Source: Ruminococcus sp. AM36-2AA
Lineage (GTDB): Bacteria; Bacillota; Clostridia; Lachnospirales; Lachnospiraceae
DNA length: 64,000 nucleotides
Direction of reading: 5' to 3'
NCBI RefSeq assembly: GCF_003461955.1
Contig: NZ_QTYB01000002.1
Location: 222,314-286,313, forward strand
The translations under genes and the position numbers were made by a program. Positions 25,573 to 40,972 of this stretch are shown piece after piece; position 1 is the stretch's first letter, and every line of letters begins with the position of its first letter. The notes under the pieces are model-generated. The model did no database searches and was not told the DNA's origin. It saw nothing but the letters and a program-made list of their open reading frames with translations.

Positions 25573-25607
25573 AAACATAAAAATACAAAAAACAAATAAA
25601 ATCAACA
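25573..25607 (+). promoter_or_regulatory. A/C-rich operator-like array upstream of the GRE operon
   Basis: Repeated ACA/ACAA words separated by A runs (ACATAAAAATACAAAAAACA, then AATAAAATCAACA) lie about 55 bases ahead of the -35 box. The array resembles the one at 29178-29240 ahead of the second microcompartment promoter. DeoR-family regulators often bind tandem A/C-rich or T/G-rich words such as TGTTT and AAACA, and a DeoR gene is encoded in this locus. Operator function is inference. Confidence 0.5.
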
Positions 25608-25660
25608 GGGTGCAACCGATAAAAACCACAAAAACAGCTAGAAACACATGTTGGATTTCG

Positions 25661-25689
25661 TTGACATCGAAGTGGGGGTAAGGTATAAT
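25661..25689 (+). promoter_or_regulatory. Consensus sigma-A promoter of the GRE-activase operon
   Basis: A perfect TTGACA and a perfect TATAAT are separated by 17 bases, the best promoter match in the window. The start codon lies about 95 bases downstream. Such strength would need repression in the absence of substrate. Confidence 0.85.
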
Positions 25690-25783
25690 GAAATTACATG
25701 AGCACATAGCCGGACAGGAGCGGTTCTGGAAGCGTGGAGGCAGACAGATCACCAGAAACAACCGGTTATGAGAAAGGAGAATC

Positions 25784-28309
25784 ATGGAGAAATTTCATAT
25801 AGCAGATATCCCGAAAACAGACAGGATCACACATCTTGTGGATAATCTTTATGCCAAGATGCCGGTGATCGAATCTGCCAGAGCGAAACTGGTCACAGAG
25901 TCCTACAAGGAAACTGAAGACGAGCCGATCATCACACGCAGAGCGAAGGCTTTTGCCCATATCCTGCATAACATTCCGATCATCATCCGTGATGAGGAAC
26001 TGATCGTCGGAAGCAGCACCCTGGCACCAAGAGGATGTCAGACATTCCCGGAGTATTCTTTCCAGTGGCTGGAGGATGAACTGGATACGGTGGCTACCAG
26101 AACTGCTGATCCATTTTATATTTCGGAGGAGACCAAGGCGGATCTTCGGGAGGTACATAAATACTGGAAGGGTAAGACTACCAGCGAGCTTGCGACTTCC
26201 TATATGGCTCCGGAAGCGATCCTTGCCATTGACCACAACATTTTTACACCGGGAAATTATTTCTACAATGGTGTAGGACATGTAACGGTTAAATATGAGG
26301 AAGTTCTGGCAATTGGTTATGAGGGTATCATTGCCAAAGCACAGAAAGAACTGGATGAAAGTAATGTGGGAGATGGTGATTATGCGAAGAAGTCACGTTT
26401 CCTGGAAGCAGTGATCTTAAGCTGCCAGGCTGTTATTGATTATGCGCATCGTTATGCAGAGCTTGCAGAGCAGATGGCATATCAGTGTCAGGATCCGACC
26501 AGAAAACAGGAACTTCTCCAGATTGCGTCCAACTGTACACGTGTGCCGGAGAAAGGTGCCCGTAATTTCTATGAAGCCTGCCAGTCTTTCTGGTTCGTAC
26601 AGCAGCTGATCCAGATGGAGAGCAGCGGACATTCCATTTCACCGGGACGTTTTGACCAGTACATGTATCCGTATTACAAGAGTGATATGGAGGCAGGTAA
26701 TCTTACCAGAGAGTTTGCTCAGGAACTGATGGACTGTATCTGGGTAAAATTAAACGATCTGAACAAATGCCGTGATGCTGCATCAGCAGAAGGTTTTGCA
26801 GGCTACAGCCTTTTCCAGAACCTGATCGCAGGCGGCCAGAATAAAGACGGTGAGGATGTGACCAACGATCTTTCCTTTATGTGTATTCAGGCATCCATGC
26901 ATGTGCATCTTCCGGCACCGTCTCTTTCTGTAAGAGTATGGAACGGATCTCCACATGAATTCCTGATCAAAGCTGCAGAGCTTACAAGAACAGGAATCGG
27001 ACTTCCGGCTTATTATAATGATGAGGTTATCATTCCGGCGCTGCAGAACAGAGGACTTTCTCTTGCAGATGCCAGGGAATATAACATCATTGGATGCGTA
27101 GAACCGCAGAAAGCCGGTAAGACAGACGGCTGGCATGATGCGGCATTCTTCAATATGTGCCGCCCGCTGGAGATGGTTTTCTCCAATGGTATGGATAAAG
27201 GAGTCCAGATCGGTGTCAGGACAGGCGATGTCACAGAGATGAAGACCTTTGATGAGTTTTATGACGCATATAAGAAACAGATGGAATATTTTATTTCCCT
27301 GCTTGTAAATGCAGACAATGCCATTGACGTGGCACATGCTGAGAGGTGTCCGCTTCCATTCCTTTCCTGTATGGTGGATGACTGCATGAAACGTGGTAAA
27401 TCCGTTCAGGAGGGAGGCGCTGTTTATAACTTTACCGGCCCTCAGGGATTTGGTATTGCAAACATGGCAGATTCTCTGTATGCGATCCGTAAACTTGTTT
27501 ATGAAGAAAAGAAAGTTACCATGGAAGAGATGAAGGAAGCTCTGGCATGGAACTATGGCAAGGGTATTGATGCACAGTCTGCAGCAGATATTACTACAAT
27601 TGTAATGCAGAAGCTTCAGGAAAATGGCATCGGTGTAAATGAGCAGACAGCCAAGGCTGTTATGACAGCAGCGCTTGGAGCAGAACCATCTCCGGAGAAA
27701 AAGGCAAGATTTGAAGAAATCCACAAACTGATCGATGAAGTTCCGAAATACGGAAACGATATTCCGGATGTGGATTATTTTGCAAGAGATGTTGCCTATA
27801 CTTACACAAAACCACTTCAGAAATACAAAAACCCGAGAGGCGGACATTATCAGGCCGGACTTTATCCGGTATCTGCAAATGTTCCCCTTGGCGGACAGAC
27901 CGGTGCTACACCGGATGGCCGTTATGCACATACACCAGTTGCAGATGGTGTTTCTCCGTCAGCAGGCAAGGATGTGAAGGGCCCGACAGCAGCAGCAACT
28001 TCCGTATCCCGTCTGGATCACTTTATCGTATCCAACGGAACACTGTTCAATCAGAAATTCCATCCGTCTGCACTTGCAGGAAGAGAGGGCCTGGAGAAAT
28101 TTGTAGCACTGATCCGTGGATACTTTGATCAGAAGGGTATGCACATGCAGTTCAATGTTGTCGACAGAGAGACACTTCTGGATGCTCAGAAACATCCGGA
28201 GAAATACAAACATCTGGTTGTACGTGTTGCCGGATACAGTGCACTGTTCACTACGCTTTCCAGATCTCTGCAGGATGATATCATCCGAAGAACAGAGCAG
28301 GGATTTTAA
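25784..28309 (+). CDS. Glycyl radical B12-independent 1,2-propanediol dehydratase
   Basis: An 841-residue glycyl radical enzyme that dehydrates (S)-1,2-propanediol to propionaldehyde without cobalamin. The radical site is G817 in RVAGYSALF and the catalytic cysteine is C438 in IIGCVEPQ, with E440 and D452. H166 and H283 fit the substrate-contact histidines known from glycerol and propanediol dehydratases of this family. Full length and intact. The choice of propanediol over glycerol, choline or other substrates follows from the fuculose-phosphate-type aldolase, PduP-like dehydrogenase and shell genes next door, so it is context-based. No clear encapsulation peptide is seen at either end. The activase follows 40 bases later. 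Confidence 0.9.
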   Translation: MEKFHIADIPKTDRITHLVDNLYAKMPVIESARAKLVTESYKETEDEPIITRRAKAFAHILHNIPIIIRDEELIVGSSTLAPRGCQTFPEYSFQWLEDELDTVATRTADPFYISEETKADLREVHKYWKGKTTSELATSYMAPEAILAIDHNIFTPGNYFYNGVGHVTVKYEEVLAIGYEGIIAKAQKELDESNVGDGDYAKKSRFLEAVILSCQAVIDYAHRYAELAEQMAYQCQDPTRKQELLQIASNCTRVPEKGARNFYEACQSFWFVQQLIQMESSGHSISPGRFDQYMYPYYKSDMEAGNLTREFAQELMDCIWVKLNDLNKCRDAASAEGFAGYSLFQNLIAGGQNKDGEDVTNDLSFMCIQASMHVHLPAPSLSVRVWNGSPHEFLIKAAELTRTGIGLPAYYNDEVIIPALQNRGLSLADAREYNIIGCVEPQKAGKTDGWHDAAFFNMCRPLEMVFSNGMDKGVQIGVRTGDVTEMKTFDEFYDAYKKQMEYFISLLVNADNAIDVAHAERCPLPFLSCMVDDCMKRGKSVQEGGAVYNFTGPQGFGIANMADSLYAIRKLVYEEKKVTMEEMKEALAWNYGKGIDAQSAADITTIVMQKLQENGIGVNEQTAKAVMTAALGAEPSPEKKARFEEIHKLIDEVPKYGNDIPDVDYFARDVAYTYTKPLQKYKNPRGGHYQAGLYPVSANVPLGGQTGATPDGRYAHTPVADGVSPSAGKDVKGPTAAATSVSRLDHFIVSNGTLFNQKFHPSALAGREGLEKFVALIRGYFDQKGMHMQFNVVDRETLLDAQKHPEKYKHLVVRVAGYSALFTTLSRSLQDDIIRRTEQGF

Positions 28310-28349
28310 CCGGGGACGCGCAGCAGACGCAAGGAATTAAGAGGTAATT

Positions 28350-29141
28350 ATGGACTATTTGGATACAAAGGGCAGGATCTTTGATATTCAGAAATATTCA
28401 GTACACGATGGTCCGGGTATCCGTACCATCGTGTTCCTGAAAGGATGTGTTCTTCGCTGCCGCTGGTGCTGCAATCCGGAATCACAGGAGTACCGGATCC
28501 AGAACATGAAAGTTCTGGGTGAGGACAAGGTGATCGGCCGTGATGTGACAGTTCGCGAGATGATCGAGGAAGTGGAGAAAGACCGCGCATATTATTATCG
28601 CTCCGGAGGAGGAATTACCCTTTCCGGTGGTGAATGTATGTGTCAGGCGGATTTTTCCAGAGATCTTCTCCGTGCGGCAAAAGAACGTGGTATTAATACC
28701 GCAATAGAGAGCATGGCATGTGCTCCCTGGGAAAAGATCGAACAGGTTCTTCCTTACCTGGATGTATATCTGATGGATATCAAACATATGAACCAGGAAA
28801 AACATAAGGAGTTTACAGGAAGGGCTAACGGACTGATGCTGGAAAATGCAAGGAAAGTTGCGCTCTACGGAAAAACCAGACTGGTGATCCGTGTTCCGGT
28901 TATTCCGACATTCAATGATTCTGTGGAAGAGATCCAGGCGATCGCCAGATTTGCAGCATCCCTTCCGGGCGTAAACAAAATTCATCTTCTTCCCTACCAC
29001 AGACTGGGACAGGATAAATATGAAGGACTTGGACGCCCTTATTTAATGGAAGGAATTCTTCCGCCGACAGCAGAACATATGCAGATGTTAAAGAACGCGG
29101 TGCATGCGGTATGCGGTCTGGACTGTCAGATTGGCGGCTGA
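28350..29141 (+). CDS. Glycyl radical enzyme activase (radical SAM), compact form
   Basis: A 263-residue radical SAM enzyme that installs the glycyl radical on the upstream dehydratase. The iron-sulphur motif is CVLRCRWC (C33, C37, C40), preceded by YSVHDGPGIRTIVFLKG and followed by CNPESQ. Many activases of this group have a two-cluster ferredoxin insert with eight cysteines right after CNPE. It is absent here, which gives the short length. The glycine-rich SAM motif reads SGGECMCQ, where SGGEP is usual, so proline is replaced by cysteine. LLPYHRLGQDKYEGLG near the C-terminus is typical of the family. It is the second gene of the first microcompartment operon. Confidence 0.92.
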   Translation: MDYLDTKGRIFDIQKYSVHDGPGIRTIVFLKGCVLRCRWCCNPESQEYRIQNMKVLGEDKVIGRDVTVREMIEEVEKDRAYYYRSGGGITLSGGECMCQADFSRDLLRAAKERGINTAIESMACAPWEKIEQVLPYLDVYLMDIKHMNQEKHKEFTGRANGLMLENARKVALYGKTRLVIRVPVIPTFNDSVEEIQAIARFAASLPGVNKIHLLPYHRLGQDKYEGLGRPYLMEGILPPTAEHMQMLKNAVHAVCGLDCQIGG

Positions 29142-29177
29142 GAAACACGGGATTAAAGAGAAAAGATCCTCTGCAAA

Positions 29178-29240
29178 CATACAACATAAAAAACAATAAA
29201 AACAACATAACAAACAACAAGAAACCAACACAAAACAACG
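29178..29240 (+). promoter_or_regulatory. A/C-rich operator-like array upstream of the aldolase operon
   Basis: An almost pure A/C stretch carries about ten ACAA or AACA words (for example ACATAAAAAACAATAAAAAC, later AACAAACAACAAG and ACACAAAACAACG). It ends about 8 bases before the -35 box. It shares ACATAAAAA and ACAA-AAA spacing with the array at 25573-25607. Both sit ahead of microcompartment promoters, so they are candidate operators for the DeoR regulator at 37377. Confidence 0.55.
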
Positions 29241-29248
29241 GATTGCCC

Positions 29249-29277
29249 TTGACTTATTTTGTGGTATGGAGTAAAAT
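29249..29277 (+). promoter_or_regulatory. Sigma-A-like promoter of the main microcompartment operon
   Basis: TTGACT and TAAAAT are separated by 17 bases, 50 bases ahead of the aldolase start. It directly follows the A/C-rich array. Confidence 0.75.
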
Positions 29278-29327
29278 GTTTTCAGAAACAAAATAGTGCA
29301 ATCCAATGCTCAAGGAGGAAATTAAGC

Positions 29328-30215: not shown

Positions 30216-30247
30216 TTTTTTGACGGAATATTAAGGAGGACAATCTC

Positions 30248-31636
30248 ATGCCAATAAGTGAGAATATGGTACAGGAAATTGTACAGGAAGTTATGGCAAA
30301 GATGCAGATTGCAGATGCTCCGGCCGGAAAACATGGTGTTTTCAAGGATATGAATGATGCTATCGAGGCAGCCAAAAAGGCTCAGCAGGTAGTTAAGACA
30401 ATGTCTATGGACCAGAGAGAGAAGATCATCACCTGCATCCGCAAGAAGATCAAAGAGAATGCGGAAGTACTGGCACGTATGGGTGTTGAGGAAACTGGTA
30501 TGGGTAATGTAGGAGATAAGATCCTCAAACATCACCTGGTAGCAGATAAGACTCCTGGTACCGAAGACATCACAACAACTGCATGGTCCGGAGACAGAGG
30601 ACTGACTCTGATCGAGATGGGACCGTTTGGCGTGATCGGTGCGATCACACCATGTACAAACCCGAGTGAAACAGTTCTCTGTAACACAATGGGCATGCTG
30701 GCAGGTGGAAATACAGTCGTATTCAACCCGCATCCGGCAGCAGTGAAAACTTCTATTTATGCAATCAATCTTCTGAACGAGGCTTCCTTGGAATCAGGCG
30801 GCCCGGACAATATTGCTGTCACAGTTGAGAAACCAACTCTTGAGACAAGCAATATCATGATGAAACATAAAGATATCCATCTGATCGCAGCAACAGGAGG
30901 CCCTGGTGTTGTAACAGCGGTTCTTTCCTCCGGTAAGAGAGGAATCGGTGCAGGAGCAGGTAACCCGCCGGCACTGGTTGATGATACTGCTGATATCCGT
31001 AAGGCAGCAAGGGATATCGTAAACGGGTGTACATTCGATAATAACCTTCCATGTATCGCAGAGAAGGAAGTTGTTGCAGTATCTTCCGTAGTTGATGAGT
31101 TAATGCACTACATGCTTACAGAGAATGACTGCTACCTTGCATCCAAGGAAGAGCAGGACAAACTTGTTGAGACTGTACTTGCAGGCGGCAAGCTGAACCG
31201 TAAATGTGTAGGACGTGATGCGAAGACCCTTCTTTCCATGATCGGAGTTCAGGCACCGGCCAATACCCGCTGCATCATCTTCGAGGGACCGAAGGAACAT
31301 CCGCTTATCACAACAGAGCTTATGATGCCAATCCTCGGAATCGTAAGAGCAAAGGATTTCGACGATGCTGTAGAGCAGGCTGTATGGCTTGAGCATGGCA
31401 ACCGTCATTCCGCACATATTCATTCCAAGAATATCGATAACATTACAAAATATGCGAAAGCAATCGATACCGCGATCCTTGTAAAGAACGGCCCGTCCTA
31501 TTCCGCACTTGGATTCGGAGGAGAAGGTTTCTGTACATTTACCATCGCAAGCCGTACAGGTGAGGGACTTACAAGCGCAAGCACATTCACAAAGAGAAGA
31601 CGCTGCGTAATGACAGACAGCCTTTGCATTCGTTGA
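30248..31636 (+). CDS. pduP: CoA-acylating propionaldehyde dehydrogenase (PduP-like)
   Basis: A 462-residue aldehyde dehydrogenase converting propionaldehyde, NAD+ and CoA to propionyl-CoA. The first 20 residues (ENMVQEIVQEVMAKMQI) form an amphipathic encapsulation helix followed by a short linker, as in PduP. The ALDH fold has the NAD-binding region with TGGPGVVTAVLSSGK and the catalytic cysteine C269 in NNLPCIAEKE. Length matches PduP. It lies 32 bases after the aldolase and 18 before the alcohol dehydrogenase. In GRM-type compartments this enzyme supplies NADH for alcohol formation and passes propionyl-CoA to PduL. Confidence 0.93.
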   Translation: MPISENMVQEIVQEVMAKMQIADAPAGKHGVFKDMNDAIEAAKKAQQVVKTMSMDQREKIITCIRKKIKENAEVLARMGVEETGMGNVGDKILKHHLVADKTPGTEDITTTAWSGDRGLTLIEMGPFGVIGAITPCTNPSETVLCNTMGMLAGGNTVVFNPHPAAVKTSIYAINLLNEASLESGGPDNIAVTVEKPTLETSNIMMKHKDIHLIAATGGPGVVTAVLSSGKRGIGAGAGNPPALVDDTADIRKAARDIVNGCTFDNNLPCIAEKEVVAVSSVVDELMHYMLTENDCYLASKEEQDKLVETVLAGGKLNRKCVGRDAKTLLSMIGVQAPANTRCIIFEGPKEHPLITTELMMPILGIVRAKDFDDAVEQAVWLEHGNRHSAHIHSKNIDNITKYAKAIDTAILVKNGPSYSALGFGGEGFCTFTIASRTGEGLTSASTFTKRRRCVMTDSLCIR

Positions 31637-31654
31637 TCAGGAGGAACATAAATC

Positions 31655-32887
31655 ATGGATATGAACAATGTAAATATCGAAGAAATCGTTAAACAGGTTC
31701 TCTCCGGCATGACAGGAAACGCTCCGGCAGCAGCTGCTGCACCAAGCACTCCGGCTGCTCCGGCAGGAAACACAATTCCGAAAAAAGCAAGAGTAGCAAT
31801 GATGACAGAGAAGAAACATTTTGAGCTTCAGGAGTATGATCTTCCGGAAGTTGGCGACGACGACATCCTTGTTAAAGTTGAGGGATGCGGTGTCTGTGGA
31901 ACAGATGCTCATGAGTACAAAAATGACCCGTTCGGTCTTATCCCGGTAGTTCTCGGACATGAGGGAACCGGCGAGATCGTAAAAATGGGTAAAAATGTTA
32001 AAGTTGATACAGCTGGTAAACCGGTTAAAGTCGGTGACAAGATCGTTACCTGCATGATCTTCAAGGATGATCCTGAAATCACAATGTTCGACCTCAACAA
32101 GAAGAACGTAGGCGGCGCTGACGTATACGGACTTCTTCCGGACGATGATGTTAAATTCAACGGATGGTTCGCTGATTACATCTTCATCAGAGGCGGAAGC
32201 TTCGGTTCCACATTCTTCAATGTAAGTGACCTTGACCTTGATTCCCGTATCCTCATCGAGCCATGTGCAGTACTTGTACACGCAGTAGAGAGAGCAAAAA
32301 CAACAGGAATCCTGAAATTCAACAGCAGAGTTGTTGTTCAGGGCTGCGGACCGATCGGTCTTATCTGCATCGCTGTTCTTCATACAATGGGCGTTCATAA
32401 CATCTGCGCAGTAGACGGAAACGAGCAGCGTCTTGAGTTTGCCAAGAGAATGGGCGCAACTACAACTGTAAACTTTATGAACTTCAAGGGTGTTGAGGCA
32501 CTTACTGAGGCTGTGAAAGAGGCTCAGGGCGGACATCTTGCAGATTTCGCTTTCCAGTGTACTGGAAATCCTCATGCTCATTCCAATATCTACAAATTCA
32601 TCCGCAACGGCGGCGGCCTCTGCGAGCTTGGATTCTTCATCAACGGTGGAGATGCAACCATCAACCCGCATTTCGACCTCTGCTCCAAAGAGATCAACCT
32701 TGTTGGTTCCTGGGTATACAACCTCAGAGATTATGCAACAACATTTGATTTCCTTAAGAGAGCAAAAGCAATCGGACTTCCAATGTCTGAGCTGATCACT
32801 GACAAGTATCCGCTGGAAGAGATCAACGAGGCACTTGAGAAGAACCTGTCAATGACAGGTCTTAAGATCGCGGTTGTTAACAAATAA
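31655..32887 (+). CDS. Zn-dependent alcohol dehydrogenase with N-terminal cargo peptide
   Basis: A 410-residue medium-chain dehydrogenase. Residues 1-20 (NNVNIEEIVKQVLSGMTG) form an encapsulation-type amphipathic helix, followed by an Ala/Pro linker (about 21-42). The catalytic domain has GCGVCGTDAHEY and VVLGHEGTGEIV for the catalytic zinc, and the Rossmann motif VVQGCGPIGLICIA. The GroES-like domain lacks the obvious four-cysteine structural zinc lobe of liver ADH. It probably reduces propionaldehyde to 1-propanol, or lactaldehyde to propanediol, recycling NADH in the shell. Which aldehyde is preferred cannot be read from sequence. It is part of the main operon. Confidence 0.88.
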   Translation: MDMNNVNIEEIVKQVLSGMTGNAPAAAAAPSTPAAPAGNTIPKKARVAMMTEKKHFELQEYDLPEVGDDDILVKVEGCGVCGTDAHEYKNDPFGLIPVVLGHEGTGEIVKMGKNVKVDTAGKPVKVGDKIVTCMIFKDDPEITMFDLNKKNVGGADVYGLLPDDDVKFNGWFADYIFIRGGSFGSTFFNVSDLDLDSRILIEPCAVLVHAVERAKTTGILKFNSRVVVQGCGPIGLICIAVLHTMGVHNICAVDGNEQRLEFAKRMGATTTVNFMNFKGVEALTEAVKEAQGGHLADFAFQCTGNPHAHSNIYKFIRNGGGLCELGFFINGGDATINPHFDLCSKEINLVGSWVYNLRDYATTFDFLKRAKAIGLPMSELITDKYPLEEINEALEKNLSMTGLKIAVVNK

Positions 32888-32911
32888 CCTTAACGGGAAA
32901 GGAGAAGCAAC

Positions 32912-33226
32912 ATGGCAGAAGCTGTAGGAATTCTGGAGGTCTTCGGACTTGCGACAGCCTTTGTGGCAGCTGACGCCGGGTGCAAGGCTGCAAATGTCCA
33001 CCTGGAGGTATTCGATAAGAATAAACCGGCGAATGCGGACAGCCTGCCAGTACCGCTTCTTGTCTGCATCAAGTACCGCGGAAGCGTGTCAGATGTCACG
33101 GCAGCGGTAGAAGCCGGCATGAAAGTCGCAGAGAGCATGACAGGTGTGGTACAGCATTACATAATCCCCAACCCGGAACCAGGTACACAGAAAATGCTGA
33201 AGATCAGCGCCCTGGATAAAGATTAA
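32912..33226 (+). CDS. Hexameric microcompartment shell protein (BMC-H), divergent
   Basis: A 104-residue single BMC domain, starting AVGILEVFGLATAFVAAD and containing VPLLVCIKYRGSVSDVTAAV and YIIPNPEPGTQ. The insertion between the second and third strands (FDKNKPANADSLP) is longer than in PduA. It probably forms hexamers in the shell facets. It is the first of four single-domain shell genes and the most different from the two near-identical ones downstream. A predicted internal promoter lies just after it. Confidence 0.88.
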   Translation: MAEAVGILEVFGLATAFVAADAGCKAANVHLEVFDKNKPANADSLPVPLLVCIKYRGSVSDVTAAVEAGMKVAESMTGVVQHYIIPNPEPGTQKMLKISALDKD

Positions 33227-33311: not shown

Positions 33312-33587
33312 ATGGCACAGGAAGCATTAGGAATGGTTGAGACAAGAGGCCTCACAGCTGCAATCGAGGCAGCAGATGCAATGACAAAAGCAGCTGAGGT
33401 TGCGCTTGTAGGAACAGAGAAGATCGGTTCCGGTCTTGTAACTGTTATGGTTCGTGGAGACGTAGGCGCTGTAAAAGCAGCAGTAGAGAGCGGAAGCGCA
33501 GCAGCATCCAGACTTGGAGAGCTCGTAGCTACACACGTGATCCCGAGACCTCATACAGATGTAGAAAAAATTCTTCCGAAGCTCTAA
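33312..33587 (+). CDS. Hexameric shell protein (PduA-like BMC-H), copy 1
   Basis: A 91-residue canonical [24 protein letters not shown], the [22 protein letters not shown] core and [15 protein letters not shown]. The pore loop motif KIGSG corresponds to the small polar pore of PduA-type shells. It is nearly identical to the protein at 34045-34323, with six substitutions in about 91 residues, so it is a recent duplicate. It has its own AGGAGG ribosome site and a predicted promoter, which fits an abundant shell component. Confidence 0.95.
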
Positions 33588-33630: not shown

Positions 33631-33972
33631 ATGGGAAAATCATATGGATTTATAGAAATCACAGGTGTGGTTGCGGCGATCAATGCCCTGGACATCATGT
33701 GCAAAACGGCAGACGTTGAGCTGGCGTCATGGGAGCGTAAGCTGGGCGGACGACTGGTGACCCTGATCGTACAAGGCGATGTATCAGCAGTTACAGCAGC
33801 TGTCAATGCGGCAGTAGAGCAGGCAATCAAGAAACCTGCCAGTTATGCGGTAATTGCCAATCCTCACGAGGAAATCGTCAAACTGGTTGAGCTGAGTGCA
33901 AGCCGGTGGAAAAAGAAACAGCAAGAGAATCCGGAAACAGCACTGGAAAGCAAAAACAGCAGCGAAAAATAA
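33631..33972 (+). CDS. Hexameric shell protein (BMC-H) with basic/acidic tail
   Basis: A 113-residue BMC-H protein, YGFIEITGVVAAINALDIM at the start and GGRLVTLIVQGDVSAVTAAV in the core. The pore loop reads KLGGR, so it differs in charge from the KIGSG copies on either side. After the BMC domain there is a polar Lys/Gln/Glu/Ser tail of about 25 residues. It lies between the two near-identical shell genes. It may give the shell a second pore type. Confidence 0.9.
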   Translation: MGKSYGFIEITGVVAAINALDIMCKTADVELASWERKLGGRLVTLIVQGDVSAVTAAVNAAVEQAIKKPASYAVIANPHEEIVKLVELSASRWKKKQQENPETALESKNSSEK

Positions 33973-34044
33973 ACTGCTGCACCAAAAAAGTCAGAAGTAA
34001 ACAGAACAAATAAAGCATTAGCAATCCATAAGGAGGATATAATC

Positions 34045-34323
34045 ATGACACAGGAAGCATTAGGAATGGTTGAGACAAGAGGACTTACAGCAGCTATCGA
34101 GGCAGCTGACCAGATGTGCAAGGCAGCTAACGTTGCACTTGTAGGAACAGAGAAGATCGGTTCCGGTCTTGTAACTGTTATGGTTCGTGGAGATGTAGGA
34201 GCAGTTAAATCTGCAGTAGAGAGCGGAAGCGCAGCAGCATCCAGACTTGGAGAGCTTGTAGCTACACACGTAATCCCGAGACCTCATACAGATGTTGAGA
34301 AAATCCTTCCGGTTCTTAAATAA
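34045..34323 (+). CDS. Hexameric shell protein (PduA-like BMC-H), copy 2
   Basis: A 92-residue BMC-H almost identical to the 33312 protein. The differences are A2T, A23Q, T25C, E29N, an Ala to Ser change after VK, and the last residues. The pore loop KIGSG and the C-terminal [12 protein letters not shown] are the same. An AAGGAGG ribosome site precedes it. It is followed by a terminator-like hairpin, so it can end a shell-only transcript started at the internal promoter. Confidence 0.95.
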
Positions 34324-34346
34324 TTTCAACTGATTCTTACTGATAC

Positions 34347-34388
34347 GCACCGGCCGAAGGGCCATTAAGGCTTCTGGCCGGTGCTTTT
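34347..34388 (+). terminator. Intra-operon terminator or attenuator before pduL
   Basis: GCACCGGCC and GGCCGGTGC arms (extended by GAAG / CTTC) are followed by TTTT, just after the second shell copy. The following genes belong to the same pathway, so read-through is expected and this may lower their expression relative to the shell genes. Confidence 0.75.
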
Positions 34389-34428
34389 CAGTTTTCAGTT
34401 ATGAGACCGAAAGAAAGCAGGTGTACTC

Positions 34429-35073
34429 TTGGAAACGAATAATATTGAAATGATCACAAAAATGGTGATCGATGCGATCAACAAAAACGAAGACAAGGGC
34501 AATGGTTTTGTTGTACCTATCGGAGTTTCCGCAAGACATATTCACCTGACACAGGAGCATGTGGAGGCACTGTTCGGAGAAGGCTATCAGCTTACCAAGA
34601 AAAAAGATCTGATGGGCGGACAGTTTGCATCCAATGAAACAGTTACCATCGTAGGACTGAAGCTCCGTGCGATCGAGAATGTAAGAATCCTCGGACCTGT
34701 CCGCAGCAAATCTCAGGTTGAGGTTTCCGCAACAGATGCGATCAAGCTGGGAATGAAGGTTCCGGTACGTATGTCCGGTGACCTTGCCGGAAGCGCGCCG
34801 ATCGCCATTGTCGGACCGAAAGGTGCTATTTATCTGAAAGAGGGATGTATTGTGGCCATGCGTCACATTCATATGGCTCCGAAGGATGCCCAGGCTGCGG
34901 GTGTACATGATGGTGATATTGTTTCTGTTAAAGCGGACAATGAGCGCGGAACAATCTTTAATCAGGTTAAGATCCGTGTAGATGACAGCTTTACACTGGA
35001 AATGCATATTGATACAGATGAAGCAAATGCAGCAAGAATTGCCACAGGCAATACAGTTACCATAATCAAATAA
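34429..35073 (+). CDS. pduL: Phosphate propanoyltransferase PduL
   Basis: A 214-residue PduL-type phosphotransacylase that turns propionyl-CoA and phosphate into propionyl-phosphate, recycling CoA in the compartment. The zinc-site motifs are VSARHIHLTQEH near residue 33 and AMRHIHMAPKDA near residue 145. The start is read as TTG at 34429. It keeps the N-terminal helix NNIEMITKMVIDAINKN, which resembles an encapsulation peptide known from PduL, and AGGTG lies just upstream. The next ATG (34450) would lose most of it. It is unrelated to Pta, and no propionate kinase is seen in the window. Confidence 0.94.
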   Translation: METNNIEMITKMVIDAINKNEDKGNGFVVPIGVSARHIHLTQEHVEALFGEGYQLTKKKDLMGGQFASNETVTIVGLKLRAIENVRILGPVRSKSQVEVSATDAIKLGMKVPVRMSGDLAGSAPIAIVGPKGAIYLKEGCIVAMRHIHMAPKDAQAAGVHDGDIVSVKADNERGTIFNQVKIRVDDSFTLEMHIDTDEANAARIATGNTVTIIK

Positions 35074-35085
35074 TATTCCTCCTTT

Positions 35086-35110
35086 GGGGATGCCACTTTC
35101 TGGCATCCCT
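35086..35110 (+). other. Intercistronic hairpin after pduL
   Basis: GGGATGCCA and TGGCATCCC arms form a perfect 9-base stem with a 5-base loop and no T run. It may be an mRNA stabiliser or processing site between pduL and the vertex gene. Confidence 0.55.
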
Positions 35111-35142
35111 AACAGAGGATATGGAGAAAAACGGAGGCTCAT

Positions 35143-35409
35143 ATGATCGTAGGCAAAGTAGTTGGAAGCATTGTTTCCACACGAAAAAGTGAAAAACTGA
35201 TAGGAAATAAATTCATGATTGTAGAGCCGGTGCATCATATGAAAGCCGAGCACAGCCAGATTGTTGCCATCGATATCATCGGTGCGGGAATCGGCGAGTA
35301 TGTATTGGTGGCACAAGGAAGCGCAGCAAGAATAGGCTGCGGCGTAGAAACAGCACCGGTAGATGCCGCAATCGTCGGAATCGTAGATGACGGTGCAGGA
35401 TTGGAGTAA
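35143..35409 (+). CDS. Pentameric vertex shell protein (EutN/CcmL, BMC-P)
   Basis: An 88-residue EutN/CcmL-family protein that caps the vertices of the icosahedral shell as a pentamer. It begins MIVGKVVGSIVSTRK, has IVAIDIIGAGIGEYVLVAQG and ends in VDAAIVGIVDDG, all typical. It follows the intercistronic hairpin and is 4 bases ahead of the PduS-like gene. It is the only BMC-P gene in the window. Confidence 0.95.
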   Translation: MIVGKVVGSIVSTRKSEKLIGNKFMIVEPVHHMKAEHSQIVAIDIIGAGIGEYVLVAQGSAARIGCGVETAPVDAAIVGIVDDGAGLE

Positions 35410-35413
35410 CGCC

Positions 35414-36742
35414 ATGGATATCAAAGAATTACAGAAAATTATGCAGGAGAATGGTGTTGTCGGAGCAGGTGGTGCAGGTTTCCCTACATACATGAAACTG
35501 ACAGACAAAGCGGATACCATTCTTATGAACTGTGCAGAGTGCGAACCATTACTGAAACTTCACAGACAGTTGTTGGAAAAGCACGCATATGAGATCATGA
35601 AAACATTCGATATGGTTGCGGAGACGGTAGGAGCTTCCCAGGCCATCATCGGAATCAAAAAATCTTATGTACAGACAATCAATGCCTTAAATCAGCATAT
35701 CGAAGAATTCCCAAGGGTTAAGATCCATCTTCTGGATGAGGTTTATCCGATGGGTGATGAGGTTGTTCTTATTTATGAGGCAACCGGACGCGTGGTACGG
35801 CCAGGAGGACTGCCTATTGAGCAGGGAGTAGCCGTATTCAATGTAGAGACACTTTACAATGTATATCGCGCGGTAGAAGAACACAAACCGGTCACAAGCA
35901 AATATGTTTCCGTTGTTGCAGAGGTTGAGAACCCTGTTACAGTGAAAGTTCCGTTAGGATGTACACTGGAAGAGGTTGTTGCCCAGGCAGGCGGAACAAC
36001 TGTGAAAGATCCAGTATATTTCGTAGGCGGCCCGATGATGGGACGTATCGGAAATGGTTCTGATCCGGTTACCAAAACAACGAACGCAATCCTGGTTCTT
36101 CCAAAGGACCATGTTATTGTCATGAAGAAGCAGCGGACTTCTTCCATAGATTTAAAGAGAGCAGCATCCATCTGCTGCCACTGCCACACATGTACAGATC
36201 TTTGCCCGAGACATAATCTGGGACATCCGATCGATCCGGCAATGTTCATGATGGCAGCATCAAACCAGGATTTCAGAAATGTAAATCCTTATATCAATTC
36301 TGCATTCTGCAGCTCCTGTGGTGTCTGCGAGATGTATGCGTGTCCGCAGAGCCTGGCTCCGAGAACACTGCTTGCAGATATGAAAGGCGGACTTCGTAAA
36401 GCCGGAATCAGACCACCTCAGGGTGTTCAGCCGAAACCGGTACAGGAGTCAAGAGAATACCGCAAGGTTCCTGAGGAGCGCCTGATGGCACGTCTGGGAC
36501 TTACCAGATATGACAAGGATGCACCGCTTCAGGAAGAGCTTGTAAATGTATCCAAGGTAAAAGTTCTCTTAAGCCAGCATATTGGTGCACCGGCACAGGC
36601 AATCGTAAATGTAGGCGATATGGTAACAGAAGGTCAGATGATCGCACAGCCTGCACAGGGATTAAGTGTCGGAATCCATGCAACGATCAGCGGAAAAGTT
36701 ACAGAAGTAACAGACCGCCATGTTGTAATTGCAAGAAATTAG
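35414..36742 (+). CDS. pduS: PduS/RnfC-like iron-sulphur flavoprotein
   Basis: A 442-residue electron carrier related to PduS and RnfC. The N-terminal region has GAGGAGFPTYMKL (nucleotide/flavin-binding loop) and NCAECEPLL. A SLBB-like domain sits around 170-205. Two ferredoxin clusters are formed by CCHCHTCTDLCP and CSSCGVCEMYACP. The C-terminus resembles the RnfC barrel-sandwich fold. In B12-type compartments PduS feeds electrons to cobalamin reduction; in a glycyl-radical system its partner is unclear. It may instead move electrons through the PduT-like shell protein encoded next. The ATG at 35414 is preferred (GGAG 7 bases upstream). Confidence 0.92.
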   Translation: MDIKELQKIMQENGVVGAGGAGFPTYMKLTDKADTILMNCAECEPLLKLHRQLLEKHAYEIMKTFDMVAETVGASQAIIGIKKSYVQTINALNQHIEEFPRVKIHLLDEVYPMGDEVVLIYEATGRVVRPGGLPIEQGVAVFNVETLYNVYRAVEEHKPVTSKYVSVVAEVENPVTVKVPLGCTLEEVVAQAGGTTVKDPVYFVGGPMMGRIGNGSDPVTKTTNAILVLPKDHVIVMKKQRTSSIDLKRAASICCHCHTCTDLCPRHNLGHPIDPAMFMMAASNQDFRNVNPYINSAFCSSCGVCEMYACPQSLAPRTLLADMKGGLRKAGIRPPQGVQPKPVQESREYRKVPEERLMARLGLTRYDKDAPLQEELVNVSKVKVLLSQHIGAPAQAIVNVGDMVTEGQMIAQPAQGLSVGIHATISGKVTEVTDRHVVIARN

Positions 36743-36758
36743 AAAGGACGTGCACAAA

Positions 36759-37307
36759 ATGAGTAGAGCAATCGGAATGATTGAGTTTAAAACCACACCA
36801 GCTGGTATCACTGCAGCAGATGCCATGGTTAAGACATCTGAAGTAGAGATCGTGGAGGCGCAGACAGTATGTCCGGGAAAATATATTGCAATTATCACCG
36901 GAGATTTAAGCGCAGTGAAAGCTGCTGTAGACACAGCAGTAACAACATACGAGGATAAATGTATTGACAGTTTTGTACTGGGCAATCCGCATGAGTCCAT
37001 TTTCCCGGCAATCTACGGAACCACACAGGTTGAGGAGATCAGTGCCCTGGGAATCCTGGAGACCTATGATGCGGCATCCATCATCGAAGCAGCAGATCAG
37101 GCTGCAAAGACAGCAATCGTTGATCTGATCGAGCTTCGTATCGCGAAGGGTATGTGCGGTAAATCCTACATGCTTCTTACAGGTGAGGTTTCTGCAGTAG
37201 AGGCTTCCATTGAAAGAGCAAAAGAGCTGGTAGCTGAAAAAGGAATGTATATGGATTCCTCAGTGATCGCTCATCCGGACAAGAGAATGATCGATACGAT
37301 CCTTTAA
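36759..37307 (+). CDS. pduT: Trimeric double-BMC shell protein with pore cysteine (PduT-like)
   Basis: A 182-residue protein with two tandem BMC domains (about 1-90 and 95-180), forming trimers that look like hexamers. The first domain reads AIGMIEFKTTPAGITAADAM with C38 in TVCPGK, the same position and context as the cysteine that ligates the central iron-sulphur cluster in PduT. The second reads ALGILETYDAASIIEAADQ and carries MCGKSY. An electron conduit across the shell to the neighbouring PduS-like protein is the likely role, by analogy with PduT. Start at 36759 directly precedes the BMC domain. Confidence 0.93.
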   Translation: MSRAIGMIEFKTTPAGITAADAMVKTSEVEIVEAQTVCPGKYIAIITGDLSAVKAAVDTAVTTYEDKCIDSFVLGNPHESIFPAIYGTTQVEEISALGILETYDAASIIEAADQAAKTAIVDLIELRIAKGMCGKSYMLLTGEVSAVEASIERAKELVAEKGMYMDSSVIAHPDKRMIDTIL

Positions 37308-37322
37308 TATTTGTCTATGAGA

Positions 37323-37351
37323 TCGGGATATCCTTTCAGAGGATATCCCGA
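37323..37351 (+). other. Strong intercistronic hairpin before the DeoR gene
   Basis: Twelve-base perfect arms TCGGGATATCCT and AGGATATCCCGA enclose a 5-base loop, with no T run. It may stabilise the upstream shell mRNA or limit read-through into the regulator. Confidence 0.65.
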
Positions 37352-37376
37352 ATGACATCCGAAAAGGAGGCATTTT

Positions 37377-38141
37377 ATGCTAGCGTTGGAAAGAAGAAAT
37401 CTGATTCTCGAAAAATTACAGGCAGAGAAAAGGGTTGTTGTAAGTGAACTAAGCCAGCTTTACAGTGTCTCAGAAGAAACCATCCGCCGTGATCTGGACA
37501 AGCTGGAAAAAGAAGGACTTGCCACAAAGAGTTATGGCGGTGCGGTGATCAACGAAGATGTCGGTATTGATTTACCATTTAATATTCGTAAAAACCAGAA
37601 TGTACAGGGAAAGCAGAAAATGGCGGAGATTGCTGCTTCCATGGTGAATGACGGAGATCATATTTTTCTGGATGCCAGCACAACGGCAGTTTTTGTGGCC
37701 AAGGCACTGAAAGAAAAAGAACGTCTCACCGTTGTCACCAATTCCATGGAGATCCTTCTGGAGCTCTCTGATGTATCCGGATGGAATATTATTTCCACCG
37801 GCGGAGTGATGAAGGAGGGGTATCTTGCCTTTCTTGGTGCCAGAACCGAAGAAGTGATCCGTTCTTACTATGTGGACAAGGTTATTTTTTCCTGTAAGGC
37901 ATTAAACGAGGATATGGGGATCATGGAATCCAAAGAAGCCTTTGGAACAACAAAAAAGGCCATGATCAATTCCGGAAAGATGCGTATTCTGGTGGTAGAC
38001 AGCACGAAATTTGATCAGACTGCTTTTTCCGTGGCAGGACAGCTGCGGGATATCGAGACGATCATCACAGACAAAAAACCGTCTGAAAAGTGGCTGGATC
38101 ATTTTAACAGGCATAAGATCGAATGCATCTACCCGAAATAG
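37377..38141 (+). CDS. DeoR-family repressor of the microcompartment locus
   Basis: A 254-residue DeoR regulator. The N-terminal winged helix has the family signature VVVSELSQLYSVSEETIRRDLDKLEKEGL, and the C-terminal sugar-phosphate isomerase-like sensor domain has DGDHIFLDASTT, TVVTNS and STGGV. DeoR proteins usually repress sugar operons and respond to phosphorylated sugars, so fuculose- or rhamnulose-1-phosphate is a plausible inducer. Its likely targets are the two promoters at 25661 and 29249, each with an A/C-rich array. It lies 69 bases after the pduT-like gene, with an AAAAGGAGG ribosome site. Confidence 0.93.
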   Translation: MLALERRNLILEKLQAEKRVVVSELSQLYSVSEETIRRDLDKLEKEGLATKSYGGAVINEDVGIDLPFNIRKNQNVQGKQKMAEIAASMVNDGDHIFLDASTTAVFVAKALKEKERLTVVTNSMEILLELSDVSGWNIISTGGVMKEGYLAFLGARTEEVIRSYYVDKVIFSCKALNEDMGIMESKEAFGTTKKAMINSGKMRILVVDSTKFDQTAFSVAGQLRDIETIITDKKPSEKWLDHFNRHKIECIYPK

Positions 38142-38157
38142 ATTGAACATATATCGT

Positions 38158-38213
38158 GAAACGATCGTGTTCATGAGCATGCAGTGTATGCGGAATGCGG
38201 AGATCCGCTTTAC
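38158..38213 (+). repeat. Dispersed palindromic repeat, copy 2
   Basis: A 56-base element running from GAAACGATCGTG to CGCTTTAC, with TGTTCATGAGCA at the position of the TGTTCATGAACA palindrome in copy 1 (13644-13698). Its right half forms a GCGGAGATCCGC hairpin. It lies between the DeoR and iron-alcohol-dehydrogenase genes. Confidence 0.6.
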
Positions 38214-38277
38214 TTTATCCGAACACAGGCAGAAAAAAGAGAACTGTGTTTCGGTATGACGAGAGGGAGCAGTTTCT

Positions 38278-39429
38278 ATGAATACATTTGAAATGAAAAC
38301 AGCCATCCATTTTGGAGCTGATGCCCTGGGAAGACTGAAAGATATTCCATACAAAAGAGTCCTTGTTGTCACAGATCCGTTTGTTGTAAAAAGCGGAATG
38401 ATCGATATGATCACAAAACCGCTTCAGGCAGGTGGAAAAGAATTTGATATTTTCTGTGATGTTGTTCCGGATGCTCCGGTTGGAAAAATTGCCGAAGGAG
38501 TCAAAAAATTCCTTCAGTATCAGCCGGAAGCGATCGTTGCAGTAGGCGGTGGCTCTGCCATCGACTCCTCCAAGGCAATCCGTGAGTTTGCCCTGAAGAT
38601 CAACAATTACGGAAAGGTTGGACTGGTTGCCATTCCTACAACAAGTGGTACAGGTTCCGAGGTTACTTCTTTTGCAGTTGTAAATGATACAGAGGCACAT
38701 GTGAAATATCCGCTGATCTCAGACAGCCTGACAGCTGATGAGGCGATCCTGGATGCTGAACTTGTACGCAGTGTTCCACCTGCGATCACAGCAGATACAG
38801 GTATGGATGTTCTGACTCATGCCATTGAGTCTTATGTCAGCATCAATCACAATGAGTTTACTTCTGCACTTGCAGAGAAATCCATTGAGATCTGTGGTGT
38901 ATATCTTTACCGTGCATATGTTGATGGTAATGATATGCATGCAAGACAGAAAATGCATGTAGCATCCTGTCTGGCAGGACTTTCCTTCAATGCAGCAGGT
39001 CTTGGAATTACTCACAGTATGGCTCATCAGCTGGGTGCTATTTTCCATATTCCTCACGGAAGAGCTAATGCGATGTTACTGCCGCATATTGTTGAATATA
39101 ATGCAAATATCAACAAACGCAGCAGAAGTCAGAAGGAATATCTTCCGGCAGTAAAGAGATATTCCAATATTGCACATCTTCTTGGACTGAGCAATTATAA
39201 CGAAGTTATGAGCGTAAGATCTCTTGTAAACTGGATCCAGTTTATGCAGAAAGAGATGAATATCCCGCTTACCATCGAAGAGATGAAGACGATCACACCG
39301 GATGCTTATTTTGCGGCGGTTGATAAGATGGCGGATATGGCACTTGCGGATGCCTGCACAGCGGCAAATCCGCGTGTACCGAAGAAAGAGGATATTGTAA
39401 AAATCTACACGAAGTTGTGGTCTTTTTAA
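38278..39429 (+). CDS. Iron-containing alcohol dehydrogenase (FucO/PduQ-like)
   Basis: A 383-residue group III alcohol dehydrogenase. Visible motifs are the NAD-binding GGGSAIDSSKAI, IPTTSGTGSEVTSFAV, an iron aspartate in DTGMDVLTHAIESYVS, and iron histidines in THSMAHQLGAIFHIPHG. Likely reactions are reduction of L-lactaldehyde to 1,2-propanediol (FucO role) or of propionaldehyde to propanol (PduQ role). The pathway needs a lactaldehyde reductase and already has a cargo-tagged Zn-enzyme. This one has no evident encapsulation peptide, so the lactaldehyde step is a fair guess. It lies 136 bases after the DeoR gene. Confidence 0.9.
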   Translation: MNTFEMKTAIHFGADALGRLKDIPYKRVLVVTDPFVVKSGMIDMITKPLQAGGKEFDIFCDVVPDAPVGKIAEGVKKFLQYQPEAIVAVGGGSAIDSSKAIREFALKINNYGKVGLVAIPTTSGTGSEVTSFAVVNDTEAHVKYPLISDSLTADEAILDAELVRSVPPAITADTGMDVLTHAIESYVSINHNEFTSALAEKSIEICGVYLYRAYVDGNDMHARQKMHVASCLAGLSFNAAGLGITHSMAHQLGAIFHIPHGRANAMLLPHIVEYNANINKRSRSQKEYLPAVKRYSNIAHLLGLSNYNEVMSVRSLVNWIQFMQKEMNIPLTIEEMKTITPDAYFAAVDKMADMALADACTAANPRVPKKEDIVKIYTKLWSF

Positions 39430-39450
39430 AAGACTGAAGAAAAACCGCAA

Positions 39451-39498
39451 AGGGGCCGCAAAGCCGCGGCCCCTCTGCACACCCCTCGGGCTTTTTTT
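39451..39498 (+). terminator. Terminator region after the Fe-alcohol dehydrogenase
   Basis: AGGGGCCGC and GCGGCCCCT form a strong 9-base hairpin at 39451-39474. A run of seven T residues lies about 16 bases further on, so the geometry is not canonical, but the region looks like an end of transcription. Confidence 0.55.
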
Positions 39499-39772
39499 AG
39501 AGTGCTTGACTGTGGCGGGCGGAAGGTTATTGACTTGTGCCTGTATGCTGCGGTTGTTCCGGGTTGAACGTTGTGCCGATGGGGCGCCGTGGGCGCCTTG
39601 GATGTGTGACGTTTTGGCGGGGGCTGGCGCGTTTGTGAACGCCGCGCCTGGTTTGCCGGGATGATTGTGGAGTGTGGTACGTATATGTGTAATGCGTAGC
39701 ATTTCGAGGATTGTAAAATTGGTCTGATATGGGTTGGGTTATTTATCAGGAGTTTCTGGGAGGTTGAGCTGG
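39475..39772 (+). other. A-poor, G/T-rich gap before pduO, no gene seen
   Basis: The stretch is visibly G- and T-rich and poor in A on this strand, unlike the A-rich gaps elsewhere in the window. Open frames in it are antisense and Arg/Pro/Ser-rich, with no family pattern. The bias fades in the first few hundred bases of the pduO gene. A GGGAGG ribosome site ends it. It may be a remnant or insertion scar. Confidence 0.4.
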
Positions 39773-40972
39773 ATGGAGGTTTATACCGGGTATGGTGATA
39801 AGGGGATGACGGATCTTTCCCATACGAAGAATGTTTCAAAGTCGGATGATCGGATTTGTCTGATGGGGTCAGTTGAGGAGCTGATGAGTCATATTGGGCT
39901 TGTGCGGGTTCTGGTTGATGATGTGGATGTTGTCCGGATGCTGGAGAAGATCTCGGAGACTTTGAAGAAGATCATAGATGGGGTTTCTGATCCTTATAAT
40001 CGGGAATTTAAGGTCAGCGAAGACCGGACGGAGCTTTTGGAGGAAGAGATTGGCCGGATGAAAGAAATTTTTTCCGGGGAGAAACTTCCAATCCTGCCGG
40101 GGGACTCCAGAGTTGCGGCTGAGATTGATGTGACAAGAGCTGTGGCGCGGAGAGCTGAGAGAGAGCTTGCGCTTGTCAGCGTGAAGTTCGGATCGGATAC
40201 CGGAGCCAAGAAATATATGAACCGGCTGTCAGATTATTTTTATGTGCTGGCAAGGTATGTGGATGTTGCGAAGATCAAAGAGAAGAAGGCAGAAGCTGCT
40301 GAAAGTGTTCAAGGTGCTGTGAGATCAGAAAATGCCGGGACAGAAATAGTTGAAAATACTGCAAATGTTGCGACGAATGCATCAGTGGCGAATGCAGGGG
40401 GACAGGATCCACAGCTGGCGCAGAAAAATGATGTACAGGCTTTTAATGTGCAAGATAAGACTGTGACAACAACAGCAGGAGGAAATACAGCGATGGCACA
40501 GAATGATAGTATGGCAGCAAATACAGCGATGATCCAGGAAGTGCTGAAGCGTATGGGAATCCAGGGACGTATCACACTGGATTCTGCCAAACGTCTCATC
40601 GAGAAGATTGAGCAGGAAGCCCTCAGAAGAAACAAGCCTTCCGTAATTGCGGTATGCACCCCGGACGGAAATCCGGTTGCGGTTCATGTGATGGACGGAT
40701 CTTTTCTTGTAAGTTTCGATATGGCCGTAAAAAAGGCCTATACATCTGTTGCTGTGAAGATGTCCACCATGGAGCTTTCCAGACTGACACAGCCGGGTCA
40801 GACATTTTATGGCCTTGGAAAAATGAGCGATAATATCGTGATATTCGGAGGCGGTGTACCGCTGAAAGTCGGCGATACCATTATCGGCGGTCTTGGTATC
40901 AGCGGTGGTACCGGAGAAGAGGATAACAGCCTTGCAGAATATGGACTGCAGGTACTGAAAGAAGTGCTGTGA
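39773..40972 (+). CDS. pduO: PduO-type cobalamin adenosyltransferase fused to HbpS/GlcG domain
   Basis: A 399-residue fusion. The N-terminal domain (about 1-165) is a PduO-type ATP:cob(I)alamin adenosyltransferase, with YTGYGDKGMTDL, ARRAEREL and YMNRLSDYFYVLARY. The usual VDEL(N) motif reads VEELMS, so the aspartate that pairs with the arginine is Glu. A long Ala/Asn/Gln-rich linker (about 175-265) contains an amphipathic helix (NTAMIQEVLKRMGIQG) that resembles an encapsulation peptide. The C-terminal domain (about 270-399) is HbpS/GlcG-like (haem or cobalamin binding), with AVCTPDGNPVAVHVMDG and GGGVPLKVGDTIIGGLGISGG. It is odd next to a B12-independent dehydratase. It ends the microcompartment locus. 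Confidence 0.9.
   Translation: MEVYTGYGDKGMTDLSHTKNVSKSDDRICLMGSVEELMSHIGLVRVLVDDVDVVRMLEKISETLKKIIDGVSDPYNREFKVSEDRTELLEEEIGRMKEIFSGEKLPILPGDSRVAAEIDVTRAVARRAERELALVSVKFGSDTGAKKYMNRLSDYFYVLARYVDVAKIKEKKAEAAESVQGAVRSENAGTEIVENTANVATNASVANAGGQDPQLAQKNDVQAFNVQDKTVTTTAGGNTAMAQNDSMAANTAMIQEVLKRMGIQGRITLDSAKRLIEKIEQEALRRNKPSVIAVCTPDGNPVAVHVMDGSFLVSFDMAVKKAYTSVAVKMSTMELSRLTQPGQTFYGLGKMSDNIVIFGGGVPLKVGDTIIGGLGISGGTGEEDNSLAEYGLQVLKEVL

Follow-up and report, generated by a model that had tools for sequence, protein, structure and literature searches.

A GRM5-type glycyl-radical microcompartment locus of a gut Blautia with an altered PduO protein and a B12-dependent module in its relatives

Introduction

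Microcompartments of the GRM5 type, which carry a glycyl radical enzyme (GRE), have been published before. The GRM5 locus of Clostridium phytofermentans is induced by fucose and rhamnose, on which the cells form propanol and propionate (PMC3557285). GRM5 loci with aldolase, DeoR, PduS and DUF336 genes have already been described, one PDU/GRM fusion is on record, and the PduO/DUF336 genes of B12-free compartments were left unexplained, being either relics or, more likely, co-opted (Axen 2014, PMC4207490). One B12-dependent enzyme has been noted beside a fucose/rhamnose compartment, with PduCD co-located in 6 of 13 genomes (PMC6620236), and B. obeum is a listed pdu carrier (PMC11414229). Here we analysed a stretch of 64,000 nucleotides from Ruminococcus sp. 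AM36-2AA (contig NZ_QTYB01000002.1, positions 222,314 to 286,313; hereafter the window), in which a first-pass annotation had marked a complete GRM5-type locus. Judged by its gene content, the locus is a GRM5-type glycyl-radical microcompartment of a gut Blautia. Its two operons share control boxes, and we consider it probable that a B12-dependent module was deleted from it and that an altered PduO was kept for its DUF336 domain.

The window locus has the same GRE and activase, class II aldolase, PduP, zinc alcohol dehydrogenase (Zn-ADH), shell genes, PduS and DeoR as the GRM5 loci of C. phytofermentans and Roseburia inulinivorans (PMC3557285, PMC4207490, PMC6325248). It differs from both in its fused PduO, which stands outside the shell operon and has an altered adenosyltransferase (ATR) domain. 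C. phytofermentans has a PduU-like gene that the window lacks, a PduV-like gene is absent from both, and one long operon was reported there, whereas the window has two separately promoted operons with shared boxes. Salmonella PduO/PduOC (5cx7) has the same two-domain layout as the window protein, with an HbpS-like C-terminal domain. The B12-dependent module of two relatives (L084 and L085) includes a PduO homologue at the same place, downstream of the iron alcohol dehydrogenase (Fe-ADH); compared with this module in L084, L085 and L098, the window lacks PduCDEGH and has residues D35 and F112 of PduO replaced. The compartment itself is ordinary, since GRM5 has been published. No earlier report of the altered-PduO pattern was recognised by title or abstract in the open-licence literature.

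A B12-dependent module at the position of PduO in relatives

A B12-independent locus is an unexpected place for PduO, a point not raised in the first-pass annotation. The window keeps this gene 343 bp after Fe-ADH and lacks PduCDEGH, whereas in L084 and L085 PduC, PduD, PduE, PduG and PduH fill the Fe-ADH/PduO interval (families confirmed for L085). The module PduCDEGH plus PduO adjoins the shell operon in L084, L085, L092 and L098, and the order PduCDEGH-PduO-GRE-activase occurs in L067 (same genome as L090), L074 and L093. One locus, L098, holds the shell operon, DeoR, PduCDEGH-PduO and GRE-activase in one row, and GRE and PduC lie about 7 kb apart in L024. The gap between Fe-ADH and PduO is 30 bp in L083, 26 bp in L086, and 235-343 bp in L081, L082 and the window.

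When flanks of up to 10 kb were included, 3 of the 80 loci showed PduC. Among 299 genomes of the family, GRE was matched in 58, three of which reach no more than 55-57% identity, and PduC in 19; 12 genomes have both, 3 of them on the same contig. Fused PduO occurs in 15 family genomes: PduC lies within about 6 kb in nine, a contig edge hides the position in one, and five gave no PduC match. A search for PduO on plasmids in 'near' mode returned no match.

The opposite arrangement was found in two genomes, G127 (L111, L092; listed completeness 84%) and G273 (L112, L113; 99%), which have a deoxy-sugar shell operon and PduCDEGH-ATR on the same contig and gave no GRE match at E 1e-250, with at most three candidates scored per genome. 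The gap from the PHP gene to the aldolase is about 500 bp in G127 and about 1 kb in G273, at the place where the window has GRE-activase. This PHP-domain gene (24746-25459 in the window) is divergent to GRE, and is found likewise in many GRM5 relatives, even those without GRE. Together with the window, the relatives form a series from GRE only (window) through both enzymes (L098; L004/L084; L005/L085) to the B12-dependent enzyme only, GRE-activase being missing (G127, G273).

In the history that we propose, the ancestral locus would also have held the B12-dependent diol dehydratase module PduCDEGH-PduO after Fe-ADH; PduCDEGH would then have been deleted in the window lineage and PduO would have stayed. 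The direction of this change, a loss, is our inference. In a tree of ATR domains (midpoint root only) the seven-row clade has support of 99/98 and the inner forks 89/85, 80/0 and 84/52; five changes of PduC state are needed, three of them forced by well-supported branches. Long branches lead to L089 and L096, and the window clade has a stem of 0.80 changes per column.

More tentatively, and with somewhat less than even confidence, we suggest that the deoxy-sugar compartment of Lachnospiraceae may be a chassis for either dehydratase, and that PduO may outlast the B12 module as a non-adenosylating protein that keeps DUF336 as an aldehyde/redox handler. If true, this would answer why B12-independent compartments retain PduO/DUF336 genes, a question that the relatives make testable, since some have the B12 module and others do not. 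The locus may also matter for gut ecology, as close Blautia relatives may differ in the B12 dependence of their fucose/rhamnose fermentation.

Replaced residues in the adenosyltransferase domain of PduO

Residues were numbered after L. reuteri PduO, set from chains 3gai and 3gah, which we take to be its F112 mutants (A and H at the F112 position). In this enzyme D35 forms an intersubunit salt bridge with R128, and F112 is needed for the four-coordinate cobalt intermediate. The window ATR domain scores above its family cut-off (TIGR00636, 121 bits vs 108); it has G6, E35, and P at the F112 position, so that both D35 and F112 are replaced. All 22 module-linked ATRs have D35, and 21 have F112 (W in the other one). 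In a separate class-wide set drawn from 45 genomes, with 50 rows of which five are weak (26-36 bits), D35 is found in 50 and F112 in 48. Judged from these alignments, the state of the window ATR is unusual.

Seven fused PduOs were taken to be without PduC (the window, L081, L082, L086, L089, L096 and L101). In six of them another residue stands at F112 (P, P, P, M, N, E), and five have E in place of D35; L083, whose genome encodes PduC at another place, shows E35 together with F112. Fisher values for this contrast ignore kinship and were not relied on. Within these seven, the five tested genomes in which F112 is lost have a BtuR-type enzyme and G070, which kept it, has none, a small and after-the-fact comparison. 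L096 (G261) and L101 (G070) have their fused PduO off the GRE contig, with no PduC match in the genome. A predicted PduO structure (8-row alignment, mean predicted local distance difference test score 51.6) was too weak to confirm the fold.

Selection on PduO and a possible role of DUF336

The ratio of nonsynonymous to synonymous change (dN/dS) in the ATR domain is 0.083 for window-L081 and 0.087 for window-L082, and 0.022 and 0.021 in DUF336. For ATR/DUF336, the module-linked pair L090-L093 gave 0.051/0.038 and the pair L084-L085, with dS above 1.4, gave 0.075/0.073, so that the two domains are closer here. The dN ratio of ATR to DUF336 is 2.6-3.5 in the window clade, 1.1-1.3 in these two pairs, and 0.8 for L083-L084. 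Selection on the window ATR may be somewhat weaker than before, and the window PduO looks altered in its ATR half and well kept in its DUF336 half.

In Salmonella, PduOC binds heme, and the cells require it to grow effectively on propanediol (PMC4923194). Formaldehyde is bound by EfgA, another protein with DUF336, and in view of the aldehyde its authors propose that it may overlap with PduO (PMC8153426). The window domain aligns with equivalents of EfgA (6bws) residues K57, S114 and D121, whose roles are taken from the latter source; overall similarity is low, and the residues are not specific, since they are reported there to be largely conserved across the DUF336 family. No histidine occurs in the first 26 residues of the window domain, and none stands where the heme ligand His18 of Salmonella PduOC (PMC4923194) would be expected, a position estimated rather than aligned residue by residue. 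Because the EfgA equivalents are present and this N-terminal stretch has no histidine, we prefer, with low confidence, an aldehyde-related role for DUF336. The ATR domain would have lost residues thought necessary for good activity, and the present reason for keeping PduO would be a different one, most likely its DUF336 domain, as a handler of aldehyde or redox chemistry in the compartment. Both the loss of adenosyltransferase activity and the function of DUF336 are what we infer.

Two other explanations concern the past and present of PduO. PduCDEGH could have been inserted into a GRM5 locus already having PduO, the window state being ancestral. The clean Fe-ADH-PduO joints of L083 and L086 and the weakness of the inner ATR-tree forks that favour loss would suit such an insertion. 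However, the tree puts the module-linked L085 and L084 below members without the module at this place, its outside rows L092 and L094 are also module-linked, and fused PduO lies near PduC in most of the family genomes that have it (nine of 15, as given above); we hold insertion to be unlikely. It is also rather doubtful, in our view, that PduO is still a working corrinoid adenosyltransferase for other B12 enzymes, with substitutions that only tune it. The window ATR keeps R128, R132, E135, N156 and GD-x-G, it is under strong purifying selection, and genes resembling B12 uptake, preceded by a riboswitch, occur in the same window. On the other side, two near-invariant residues are replaced together, and the relatives G001 and G002 carry a separate BtuR/CobA-type enzyme.

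The retained ATR residues are one of several points that weigh against deletion of the module followed by loss of ATR activity. A relic of PduCDEGH was sought in the spacer at 39430-39772 and none was found. For the absence of PduC in the window clade we rely on G001, G002 and the window itself, and the three rows of this clade amount to one evolutionary event. L101, also without PduC, retains all the residues, and L089, L096 and L101, three of the seven, lie on contigs other than those of their genomes' GRM5/GRE genes. K6 is not diagnostic, being G in 4 of the 50 class-wide rows. A rule by which absence of PduC and presence of BtuR lead to residue loss failed out of sample: all 12 class-wide rows from genomes with BtuR and without PduC (single-domain ATRs, three weak) retain D35 and F112, so absence of PduC alone is no predictor of residue loss. 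The dN ratio reaches 2.0-2.5 in the distant module-linked pairs L092-L094, L084-L092 and L084-L094 too, and weaker selection on the ATR is therefore suggested, not shown. Finally, since dN/dS is far below 1, the ATR domain is not simply decaying; such purifying selection argues for a changed or kept role and against plain decay.

Dehydratase type and gene content

A tree placing the dehydratase with choline or glycerol enzymes had been named as grounds for giving up the propanediol assignment. Judged by scores and curated cut-offs, there was no reason to give it up. The best solved relative of GRE is the diol dehydratase 5i2a, presumably the Roseburia enzyme (1342 bits, residues 6-840), followed by glycerol dehydratase 1r8w (1051) and 9rco ('Glycyl radical protein', 1033), with 585 bits for the highest-scoring choline lyase chain. 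GRE exceeds the general-family cut-off (TIGR01774, 827 vs 678) and stays below the curated cut-offs for choline lyase (604 vs 1050), 4-hydroxyproline dehydratase (HypD; 630 vs 1100) and sulfopropanediol dehydratase (706 vs 1000). On these scores the window GRE is of the propanediol type. Its insert at about 590-642 aligns with 5i2a and falls in a gap of 1r8w and 9rco. Enzymes of GRM3, GRM4 and GRM5 are described as having an insert peculiar to them, some 60 residues long, for which a role in encapsulation has been predicted (PMC6325248). The hydrophobic moment is unremarkable in this insert (263 of 500 shuffles as high) and in the inter-domain helix of PduO (111/500), and stands out only at the N-termini of Zn-ADH (5/500) and PduL (17/500). 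The C-terminal tail of the aldolase and the N-terminal helices of PduP and Zn-ADH are putative encapsulation peptides.

Family calls on the open reading frames of the window used NCBIfam/TIGR equivalog cut-offs and Pfam profiles (Table 1). All genes that had been listed for the locus were found in their places, as were GRE residues C438, E440, D452 and G817. Two starts were revised: that of the aldolase is most likely ATG 29328 rather than TTG 29259, which lies within the aldolase promoter, and that of PduO, likewise, ATG 39773 rather than TTG 39734. The GRM5 assignment stands, with a propanediol-type GRE and its activase, a class II aldolase, DeoR, a DUF336 protein and Fe-S cysteine motifs in PduS and PduT, in agreement with the published description (PMC3557285). 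NCBIfam fuculose-phosphate aldolase models match the aldolase below their equivalog cut-offs. B. schinkii (L001) has a GRE with 97% identity to the one in the window, and a public protein named Blautia massiliensis is reported to be 100% identical to the window PduO.

To call the locus complete was too strong, because EutS/PduU-like and EutP/PduV-like genes are absent from the window. By similarity they occur in 55 and 53, respectively, of 81 sequences, made up of the window and 80 loci, some of which are truncated. The two genes lie 3' of the activase gene in the three loci read (L004, L013 and L054); L004 is the only one of the ten nearest loci to have them, and L003 and L007, also among the ten, stop before the aldolase. 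Copies may lie elsewhere in the genome, outside the window.

Table 1 Features of the GRM5-type locus, with positions in the window.
Feature	Position	Strand	Evidence or remark
Box AAAACCACA	25622-25630	+	5' of dehydratase operon
Promoter-like site TTGACA-17-TATAAT	25661-25689	+	Dehydratase operon; 12/12 consensus
GRE, predicted 1,2-propanediol dehydratase, 841 aa	25784..28309	+	PF02901+PF01228; 5i2a 1342 bits
GRE activating enzyme (radical SAM)	28350..29141	+	TIGR02494 296 bits vs cut-off 174
Boxes AAAACAACA, AAACCAACA	29199, 29222	+	5' of aldolase/shell operon
Promoter-like site TTGACT-17-TAAAAT	29249-29277	+	Aldolase/shell operon
Class II aldolase (fuculose/rhamnulose phosphate), 295 aa	29328..30215	+	PF00596 165 bits
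PduP-type aldehyde dehydrogenase	30248..31636	+	NF011927 660 bits vs cut-off 403
Zinc alcohol dehydrogenase (propanol dehydrogenase or lactaldehyde reductase)	31655..32887	+	PF00107, PF08240
BMC-H shell protein 1	32912..33226	+	PF00936 72 bits
BMC-H shell protein 2	33312..33587	+	PF00936 104 bits
BMC-H shell protein 3	33631..33972	+	PF00936 78 bits
BMC-H shell protein 4	34045..34323	+	PF00936 106 bits
PduL phosphate propanoyltransferase	34429..35073	+	NF011652 267 bits vs cut-off 209; PF06130
BMC-P pentamer (EutN/CcmL)	35143..35409	+	PF03319 102 bits
PduS-type flavin/Fe-S oxidoreductase	35387..36742	+	PF01512, PF10531, PF13534, PF13375; two tetracysteine motifs
PduT-type BMC-T	36729..37307	+	Two PF00936 stretches; CPGKY motif
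DeoR-family regulator	37377..38141	+	AgaR/GlpR/SrlR-type matches under equivalog cut-offs
Iron alcohol dehydrogenase	38278..39429	+	NCBIfam Fe-ADH matches under equivalog cut-offs
343-bp spacer Fe-ADH/PduO	39430..39772	.	Site of PduCDEGH in L084/L085
GC-rich stem in Fe-ADH/PduO spacer	39446-39479		Flagged terminator-like on minus strand
Fused PduO: ATR domain + linker + DUF336/HbpS-like domain	39773..40972	+	PF01923 130 bits, PF03928 116 bits
L-fucose isomerase (separate unit, same pathway)	45618..47414	+	PF07881, PF07882, PF02952

Control elements of the two operons

The first-pass annotation had pointed to two operons with matched control elements, and this is borne out by box counts and promoter-like sites. 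Boxes of the form A[AG]A[AC]C[AC]ACA were counted in 260-bp upstream stretches against 50 shuffles. There are 74 boxes 5' of GRE, in 46 of 78 sequences (shuffles mean 3.5, max 8), and 71 boxes 5' of the aldolase, in 37 of 63 (mean 3.8, max 8); 22 of the 60 sequences having both stretches carry boxes in both. Upstream stretches of control genes had a box in 0/79 (activating enzyme), 0/64 (PduP), 0/64 (Zn-ADH), 0/64 (BMC-H1), 0/52 (PduL), 1/55 (PduS), 0/22 (DeoR) and 0/5 (Fe-ADH) cases. The motif was picked after viewing the alignment of the window and the ten nearest loci, so for these the counts run partly in a circle. The boxes are probably bound by the locus's own DeoR protein.

Promoter-like sites precede both operons, GRE-activase and aldolase to PduT. 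Since the promoter scan overall shows no excess over shuffles (17 matches vs 23.2), the argument is recurrence in relatives: the pattern stands 5' of GRE in 48 of 81 sequences, including 8 of the 10 nearest loci, and in 26 of 66 sequences 5' of the aldolase, some of which were wrongly sliced. The palindrome TGTTCATGAACA, with exact copies at 13654 and 25479 and one with a mismatch 5' of Fe-ADH, was considered as a DeoR operator and rejected because no copy lies in the 420 bp 5' of GRE in any of the ten nearest loci.

Sugar supply and proposed pathway

The gene for L-fucose isomerase lies about 5 kb downstream of the locus. The enzyme is present in 9 of 9 relatives, near the locus in five of them (G001, G002, G003, G004 and G006), and rhamnulokinase scores above its cut-off in all nine; no fuculokinase or rhamnulokinase was identified among the window open reading frames scanned with profile families. 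The B12-independent breakdown of fucose or rhamnose proposed in the first-pass annotation is supported by this gene content. The aldolase would split fuculose- or rhamnulose-1-phosphate into dihydroxyacetone phosphate and lactaldehyde, which an alcohol dehydrogenase would reduce to 1,2-propanediol. GRE, activated by its activase, would convert this to propanal, which would yield propionyl phosphate (PduP/PduL) and propanol (alcohol dehydrogenase), with PduS/PduT carrying electrons.

A different flow is conceivable at two steps. The compartment might run a lactaldehyde-to-lactate branch (the PVM scenario) with the dehydratase secondary, as has been argued for fucose/rhamnose compartments from the limited co-location of PduCD noted above (Ravcheev 2019, PMC6620236). 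We find this very unlikely here: GRE and activase sit in the locus and have control boxes in common with the shell operon, and C. phytofermentans yields propanol and propionate on these sugars (PMC3557285). Still more improbable is a preference of the dehydratase for glycerol over 1,2-propanediol. Glycerol dehydratase is indeed its second-best solved relative, but the Roseburia diol dehydratase scores higher, and GRE has the insert reported for GRM3-5 enzymes (PMC6325248).

A cobalamin riboswitch lies at 7420-7595 of the window, followed by genes for a chelatase of the CbiK type and for an ABC transporter of the FecCD type with its binding protein (7752-13554), which probably serve corrinoid uptake. 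In the stretch 23822-24596, a second cobalamin riboswitch lies 5' of a gene for a small protein rich in cysteine (PF04071), with its likely start at 24111; the listed open reading frame from 23838 reads through the riboswitch. The stretch of PduL and PduS (34429-36742) has nearly no silent differences from L081 (G001), with dS of 0.00 and 0.01, compared with 0.20 for Fe-ADH, 0.27 for DeoR and 0.42-0.46 for PduO, which suggests that the shell operon recombined recently between species.

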